DNA of 64,000 bases, from NCBI GenBank assembly GCA_960531495.1, contig OY482851.1, forward strand, positions 24,799,033-24,863,032, given 5' to 3'. The notes under the pieces were generated by a model that was not told the origin of the DNA, made no database searches, and saw only the letters and a list, made by a program, of their open reading frames with translations. Below are positions 52,301 to 55,300 of the stretch, piece by piece. This DNA is from Zeus faber. Its lineage: Eukaryota > Chordata > Actinopteri > Zeiformes > Zeidae. The first letter of the stretch is position 1. The number at the start of each line of letters is the position of its first letter. The position numbers and the translations under genes are program-made.

Positions 52301-55300
52301 ATTCGCAGCATCACTTTCTAACGACACCAATTTCAGGTTTCCGAGTTCACAGGGCGGACATTCTGCACACTGCTTCTTTATTGTCTCAGACTTTCAGCTT
52401 TTCTTTGGCATCTGGAACATGAAAACACACAAACAATACATTTATTTCATGACACAACTAATAACACAATTCTATCTAAACTCAACAAAAACATCTCTTG
52501 AAATATCGAATGGAAAACAACATGAATCACAGTTATCCGAGTTCCATTGAATGCACCATTACATCCGAGTTTTCGCTTGTTTCACTTCCTGTTTTTGGAG
52601 TGCTTTCAACTGGAGAGCTGCGTCTCCGCTTCACATCTTAACAGAAAACAAATCCACAAATTAATGGATTGTGGATAACGTTGGTTTTTTTCTGACGGAT
52701 AAAAAAAAAAAAAACATAAAAAGTTATTCATTTGAACAAATGATGTTTGTTGTTCATCACATTTCAGACAGTCTTTTGTGATGTGTTTATTGCCGACGTT
52801 CATATCGCGATGAAGATGAAAATACGGTTGATCGTGCAGCCCTACACAACAGACCTCGTAGGGTGCAAATGAGCACCCAGAGACTGAACCTGGACATATA
52901 CTGTATAATAAATTGAATGATGACGTCACAAAGTCCCCGCTCCATAAACTAATCGAGGTACGACAAAGTTCTGCTACTTCCAGTAGATTTGTCGTTTTTC
53001 ACTAATATCTGCTCCGAATGTAGATCGATATGGATCAAATTTGAACCACGAGATGTCTGAAATGTCCCTGTTCTAACGAGACCTCAACCATGTCTTCAGC
53101 AAATGTTGTGTTCCTTGTGACACTTTTGGCCCGAAAAATGCCAAGGACAATAATAATAATAAAAATCCCAGCAATAACAAGCTGGCTGGCCCCGTAATAA
53201 TCATAATGATAATAATAAATTTCCCCTTGTGTCCGTGGCCCTTCAGGAACAGAAGTTCTGCCAGAGATACGACCAGCTAATGGAGGCCTGGGAGAAGAAG
53301 GTGGAACGCATCGAAAATAACCCACGGCGGAGGGCCAAGGAGAGCAAGGTGCGCGAGTATTATGAGAAGCAGTTTCCAGAGATCCGCAAGCAGAGGGAGC
53401 TGCAGGAGCGCATGCAGAGGTGAGGCCACAGCAAGCTCTCCCCAATCTCTTTTCTCAGCAGTTGGTCCTTCATGGTTCGGAATGAGTAGAAGGGCTCTGC
53501 TGCATTTCCTTCTGCATTTTACGTTTTGCAGAATGCAGTGTGTTTGTCTGTTTTAGTGTAGTGCCTTCATCAAAGCCGCCGCAAAACCTCCTAAAGTGTT
53601 TCTACCCCTTACAGCCGTGTAGGGCAGCGTGGTGGTGGACTGAGTTCATCTGCAGCTCGTAGCGAACACGAGGTCTCAGAGATCATTGACGGCATATCAG
53701 AGCAAGAGGTGAGTTTACTCTTTTCTGCACGTGACCATTTACCTCCTGTGAGTCCGGCGATATCCTACTGTCTGCTAAGTTAACCGTAGTGCTCCCCACT
53801 CGGCTTGAGCAGATTGACGATTAAATTAATCTATAGAGTCTATAGCCATTGACAATAATGACAGATTTTTCTTTTTTAATTGCCAGGAAAAATATGTTCT
53901 CAATCTGATCCCTCAGAGCGGGAGAGAGCCACATTCTCCCTCCACCCCTCTGCCAAGCCCACTCCCCACCCACTCTAAACAGTTTTAATCTTAATTTTTA
54001 ACCAAGTTGAACACCAGCCCCTTTGAAGGCACATCTGTTTCTGACATGAAACATATAGCCGTTATTTAGTTTTGCTTTGTTTGCGTTCCTTATATGAGGC
54101 CATTTCTTAATCAGATACACCAGCTCCTTGTTAACAGTGTTCACCCTCCTATGTTGAGAACGCTGATGGCCAGTTCATGGATTTAATCTTTCTTTTGGCC
54201 TTATTTTAAGAAGACGCTCACGCAAGCAGTCTAGTCTCTTTCTCTCCAGCTCTGACCCCTGACCACCTTCAAGTCAATTTTATTAATTTCTTTACATTTT
54301 CATCTGTCTGCGATTGATAAAACATCTATCCAGATTAGTCTGCAGCAAGTACATGAAGCGCACATTATGCAGGTCAGCCTGTGGCGTCGCCAGCATGACC
54401 TCAACTTCCTGTTGTCTTCTGAACTTTTACCTGCTTTTCAGAAGTAGCCTATTTTCACACTCACACTGTTTTATGTAGTACATGTTTGTTTGGCGGCATG
54501 TGGTTAGAACACTTCCCTCTAATTGCAACCCACTCAATCCCAGACATTTGACACACTGTGTGTGTGTGTGTGTGTGTGTGTGTGTGTGTGTGTGTGTGTG
54601 TGTGTGTGTGTGTGTGTGTGTGTGTGTGTGTGTGTGTGTGTGTGTGTGTGTGTGTGTGTGTGTGTGTGTGTGTGTGTGTGTGTGTGTTCAGAACACAGAG
54701 AAGCAAATGCGCCAGCTGGCGGTCATTCCGCCCATGCTGTTTGATGCCGAGCAGCAGCGCATCAAGTTCATCAACATGAACGGTCTGATGGGCGACCCGA
54801 TGAAGGTGTACAAGGACCGACAGGTCATGAACATGTGGAGTGAGCAGGAGAAGGACACCTTTCGAGAGAAGTAATGACCCTCTTTATATCCATCAGGGTT
54901 TATATATTGGCAGAGCGGGGATCTTGTCTTTGTGATGGGTTTTAATTAGATTTTGTCTGTAAAGAAGTTGCGTGGTATTGTACTTACCACACGTACGCCC
55001 TTCGTCTCTTTTGCACTGGATTACTCTGGCGATTGTGTTTGATTGCGATATGGCTGCCATTGGTTTTACTCACTCTGACAAGTCTGGAGACTGTGTACGG
55101 TTCAGCGAGTTTGCTTTGAGGAAATGAAGCTTCTCCTTTCGTGAGAAAAGAGATCAACAGTGTCAACCTGCCAAACTGAATCCTACCCACATCAGTTGAA
55201 ATCAGTGACTGCCCACAGTCCACCCACACACAGACGCTTCCCAATCTTCATCCCTTGATACATGGTAGTCGTACAGCAAAAATGTAGATGGTTTGCTCCT

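Follow-up and report, generated by a model that had tools for sequence, protein, structure and literature searches.

An Ncor2-like gene carries an uninterrupted run of 65 TG repeats that stops five nucleotides short of coding exon 11, far above the 12 uninterrupted UG repeats required for the pUG class of RNA repeats near splice sites. The run takes up nearly the entire interval from the likely branch point to the end of the intron. We argue that this is probably a 3' splice site of the usual major-spliceosome type, inside which slippage has enlarged a TG microsatellite that lies between the branch point and the AG. The tract itself, real as it is, would then probably be an ordinary case of repeat overgrowth, and its history of expansion is what we infer from the sequence. 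A second acceptor of the same gene, that of exon 5, carries a similar tract.

The gene and the acceptor of exon 11

On the plus strand of the window, i.e. of the whole stretch of 64,000 nucleotides that was analysed, lies an NCOR2 (SMRT) gene, of which the 5' half is covered. A search with human SMRT as the query placed 13 consecutive coding exons, the first with its start codon at 10281 and the last ending at position 55794; joined, they form one open frame of 490 aa. Exons are numbered here from the one with the start codon. The original prediction had exon 11 begin the HDAC3-activating domain, which is supported by a match of this exon to residues 6-59 of 59 of PDB 4a69_C (nuclear receptor corepressor 2; E 2e-30), a structure of the activating domain bound to HDAC3; the exon also matches residues 28-59 of PDB 1xc5_A. 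The predicted exon length, not a multiple of three, was found as well (Table 1). A pattern search with the exon 11 peptide returned 6 matches in viral contigs and 24 in genome contigs, with no relatives among them, vertebrate DNA not being expected in either collection. Farther downstream, a G-rich tandem repeat (58949-58997) lies shortly upstream of a polyglutamine-coding stretch at about 59090.

Table 1. Features around the tract-bearing acceptors (window positions)
Feature	Position	Strand	Remarks
Second tract-bearing acceptor, exon 5: branch candidate TTAAC (A 34866), (CT)n, (TG)72 at 34891-35034, acceptor CTACAG	34864..35040	+	
Coding exon 5, behind (TG)72	35041..35154	+	114 nt, divisible by 3
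Acceptor-like site in intron 8: CTAAC (A 52018), (TG)68, TTACAG	52015..52165	+	no known exon after it
Coding exon 9, counterpart of human NCOR2 "exon 11"	53247-53419	+	173 nt, frame-shifting here too
Intron 10 of the Ncor2-like gene	53709..54691	+	983 nt, GT-AG; taken from the open-frame exon map
CTAAT, candidate branch site of the proximal competing acceptor (A 54522)	54519..54523	+	21 nt to G 54543
CAG, possible proximal competing acceptor (AG 54542-54543)	54541..54543	+	
TTGAC, likely distant branch site (A 54551)	54548..54552	+	the 146-nt AG-free zone has no other yUnAy match
(TG)65, uninterrupted	54557..54686	+	read from the sequence
TTCAG, acceptor of exon 11	54687..54691	+	from the sequence and exon map
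Coding exon 11	54692..54870	+	179 nt (2 mod 3), phase 0 at its start, followed by GTAATG; begins the HDAC3-activating domain

That the tract is pure and separated from exon 11 by TTCAG alone, as had been claimed, is confirmed both by the sequence and by Tandem Repeats Finder, which delimits the repeat at 54557-54687, with 65.5 copies and 100% matches; long TG tracts could, in general, be mis-sized in an assembly. Since the tract contains not a single A, the nearest upstream A of any kind is found 136 nt from the acceptor G, and an adenosine branch point must lie at least that far from the acceptor. The likely branch site TTGAC had been placed about 140 nt upstream, and indeed 140 nt, a stretch free of AG, separate its A from the acceptor G. 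A yUnAy match alone is weak evidence, because the acceptors of exons 9 and 12 also have none within 60 nt; that the branch point is distant follows from the composition of the tract if the branch nucleotide is an A. At the ten other mapped acceptors the AG-free zone spans 16-69 nt, as compared to 146 nt at exon 11 and 177 nt at exon 5, both above the threshold of at least 100 nt that marks candidates for distant branch points. AG-free zones of at least 100 nt are not rare in these introns: they precede 24 of the 3,060 intronic AGs, and only two of these 24 AGs are mapped acceptors, namely those of exons 5 and 11.

The human exons with distant branch points, as presented in the excerpted text of PMC1431707, likewise have AG-free zones of more than 100 nt, at whose upstream ends a branch-site match is found. 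Exon 11 differs from them in that its zone is pure repeat and lacks a pyrimidine tract after the branch site, TTGAC being followed by ACAC(TG)n with no pyrimidine run. The site also resembles the pUG repeats near 3' splice sites (PMC12276007, in part), with which it shares more than 12 UG repeats in an unbroken row next to the splice site; the Ncor2-like gene stands apart by having 65 and 72 repeats, two such tracts in one gene, and folding that is putative. The exon 11 site counts among the pUG repeats next to 3' splice sites, and is neither a CFTR-type (TG)mTn element nor an AC/GT bridged intron.

Scoring of the splice sites added little. The acceptor matrix, built from 10 acceptors of the same gene with each left out of its own matrix, was uninformative: true acceptors scored from -1.6 (exon 13) to 11.2 (exon 10), exon 11 obtained -1.0, and the acceptor-like sites that follow tracts inside introns, at 52165, 40644 and 60992, reached 9.9, 10.7 and 6.0, respectively. 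The donor of exon 11, GAA/GTAATG, has the lowest score of 13 donors in a crude matrix that was also built from this gene, which fits a weak exon. Thermodynamic folding, a method that does not model quadruplexes, yields no RNA structure for the tract alone (0 kcal/mol). When intron 10 is folded, 93 of 131 tract bases are paired, all with partners within 53930-54556, which we regard as generic.

Exon 5 and the other long tracts of the window

The acceptor of exon 5 repeats this architecture. Its branch candidate TTAAC, the single yUnAy match, is located at the upstream end of the AG-free zone, 174 nt from the acceptor, and has a pyrimidine run, (CT)n, beside it. Once the TG units are removed, the distance from branch to AG shrinks to 30 nt at exon 5 and to 10 nt at exon 11, so that both look like normal splice sites inside which a repeat has grown; five to eight TG repeats in the exon 11 site would give the usual spacing of 20-26 nt.

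The window contains eight pure dinucleotide tracts of 53-72 units, which in gene sense are seven TG and one AC, and six of the eight are not beside a mapped exon. When eight such tracts were laid out at random, 8 of 200,000 layouts had two or more of them no farther than 6 nt from any of 13 acceptors, and 1.2% of layouts had at least one so placed; this null assumes uniform placement, was chosen after the case had been seen, and takes as its 13th acceptor a tblastn start that is incompletely mapped. Pure dinucleotide tracts in the window have either 53-72 or at most 23 units, with none of 24-52 units, a gap that could reflect either rapid turnover at the upper size or an effect of assembly.

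Of the seven long TG tracts in sense orientation, five are followed by a CAG within 6 nt (five of eight if the antisense one is included); the background is 7.6% over intronic positions, and shorter TG runs, counted on either strand, show such a CAG in 7 of 85 cases. After subtraction of the two true acceptors, three of five remain (binomial P 0.004, for an excess noticed post hoc). Human microsatellite flanks are described as converging through mutation bias (PMC509290, in the excerpt at hand), and for this reason we claim no function for the CAG. A yUnAy match upstream of the tract within the same AG-free zone is present at three of the seven TG tracts, namely at exon 5, at exon 11 and at the acceptor-like site in intron 8, where the A lies 147 nt before the acceptor end. 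The candidate exon behind this intron 8 site (52015-52252 with the site) has a donor-like CAG/gtagtc 87 nt on, and its reading frame runs for seven codons before a TAA closes it, so that it could be a poison exon at most. Intron 3 contains (TG)63 (22712-22838) and (AC)64 (23879-24006), about 1 kb apart and neither at a splice site; the two could pair as a long RNA hairpin.

How exon 11 may be spliced

If the site is an ordinary one with an expanded repeat, exon 11 would normally be included through the distant branch point TTGAC, since the TG tract presents no competing AG or A. The spliceosome would use this branch point and then scan to the first AG, as proposed for human distant-branch-point exons in the consulted part of PMC1431707. 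TG is one of the few repeats that are able to lengthen between branch point and AG without creating a new AG or A, and this is why such growth can go on. The human spacing from branch to AG, given as 29.3 +/- 11.9 nt on average with an optimum of 19-23 nt (PMC9508853, excerpt), is far shorter, so that some extra help, or some loss of efficiency, would be expected at exon 11. The UG RNA may be coated by UG-binding proteins such as TDP-43, up to about 10 molecules per 130 nt, or, alternatively and more slowly, it may fold into as many as five pUG quadruplexes of 12 repeats each; either event could alter the effective distance and leave the inclusion of exon 11 less than complete. TDP-43 has a footprint of about 12 nt and can capture single-stranded UG before it folds (PMC12697283, available portion), and pUG folds need 12 repeats and form slowly, with a half-life of at least 13 min (PMC12276007, available portion), which would make coating likelier than folding during splicing. 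The latter source also reports human pUGs of at least 12 repeats as enriched near splice sites.

Several other explanations have to be weighed against this one. The tract could be a neutral passenger, fully tolerated and of no effect beyond distance. Most of the long tracts in the window, lying away from mapped exons, favour this view; however, 140 nt is far beyond the usual spacing, and two of eight tracts at acceptors would be unusual under uniform placement, so that we consider a mere passenger somewhat unlikely. A stronger role for the tract would be of the CFTR kind, with UG-bound TDP-43 or a CELF-type protein blocking U2AF and causing length-dependent skipping and less functional Ncor2. 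The picomolar affinity of TDP-43 for UG repeats (PMC12697283, as excerpted) speaks for it, as does the skipping of CFTR exon 9, which the excerpted literature attributes to TDP-43, and so do the human exons with AG-free zones of at least 150 nt, 32.5% of which are cassettes as compared to 19.8% (PMC1431707, as excerpted). The zone of exon 11, however, at 146 nt falls just short of that class. The likeness to CFTR exon 9 that had been claimed holds only in part: the TG tract immediately upstream of the acceptor is shared, but the oligo-T of (TG)mTn is absent, TTCAG following directly on the TG, and the repeat number is about five times the TG11-13 discussed in the text seen of PMC12171016. The CFTR skip, according to the same partial literature, additionally requires an exonic hnRNP A1 element. 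We hold a CFTR-like block to be unlikely.

Two further possibilities were weighed. CTAAT, with no AG over the 21 nt to AG 54543, could serve an alternative acceptor that competes with the distal AG, in which case the TG tract would enter the mRNA and the repeat number would set the frame. The insert would be 18+2n nt long, a length that leaves a remainder of 1 on division by 3 at n=65 and is divisible by 3 at n=60, 63, 66 and 69; at the present length it would add 148 nt, the whole tract included, with a stop at aa 446. The proximal AG scores poorly in the crude matrix (-0.4, the 77th percentile of AGs), the own AG of exon 11 being no better there at -1.0, and we judge such competition quite improbable. 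The other possibility stems from zebrafish AC/GT introns, in which, as Lin et al. reportedly found in 2016, an AC repeat at the 5' end pairs with a GT repeat at the 3' end and splicing proceeds without U2AF2. Half of this design is a GT tract in the 3'-terminal part of an intron (PMC9198270, in the part consulted), and intron 10 has that half but no AC partner. Its longest AC run is 6 nt, and that of intron 4 is 8 nt, with no more than 4 and 6 nt, respectively, in the first 300 nt; the bridge is accordingly rejected for both introns and is, overall, extremely improbable. The most ambitious reading would treat branch site, (TG)65-72 and YAG as a splicing module reused in Ncor2, which would gate exons 5 and 11 and the possible poison exon of intron 8 (52166), with the tracts switching between a TDP-43-coated and a pUG-folded state and thereby setting the level of working corepressor; we find it highly doubtful.

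For the expanded ordinary splice site, which we prefer, length-dependent skipping of exon 11 is possible, and regulation of the Ncor2 dose by repeat length would be plausible. UG repeats next to splice sites and distant branch points have both been described already; among the matches listed in the open-licence literature, none reports on the (TG)65 tract. If tract length matters, the mutable repeats in this global corepressor would provide a natural length series for the limit of the branch-to-acceptor distance, and would also raise the question whether splicing is aided or impeded by TDP-43 or by pUG folding. If it does not matter, the tract would be an example of a repeat free of A and AG that grows inside a splice site without breaking it. 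The gene also offers an internal comparison, with one tract before a frame-neutral exon (114 nt) and the other before a frame-shifting exon (179 nt).

Consequences of skipping and the human precedent

Skipping of exon 11 had been expected to shift the frame, and for the skip of this single exon it does: a stop arises at 55740 in exon 13, 54 nt upstream of the exon 13 donor, a point that also counts for the CFTR-like explanation. The frame stays open across the mapped exons when exons 10 and 11, or 11 and 12, are skipped jointly, and also when exon 5 is skipped, so that skipping of exon 11 would not always produce a null.

A human counterpart might be sought in BQ323636.1, a product of NCOR2 "exon 11" skipping that is linked to tamoxifen resistance (PMC10136643, in the sections available). 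The primers for that "exon 11", however, match coding exon 9 of the gene studied here, at 53293-53311 with one mismatch and at 53377-53394 with two. The human numbering is thus offset by two, and exon 11 as numbered here would correspond to human exon 13. BQ323636.1 was accordingly rejected as direct support for the skipping of exon 11, and the human skip, being that of another exon, weighs against the CFTR-like explanation; it is a neighbouring precedent, which shows, as far as the available text of PMC10136643 goes, that human cells do skip a frame-shifting exon in this region of NCOR2.

At the donor of exon 13, read-through (55795-55869) stays open for 75 nt up to a second donor, AAG/gtaaaa, which constitutes an in-frame alternative 5' splice site.
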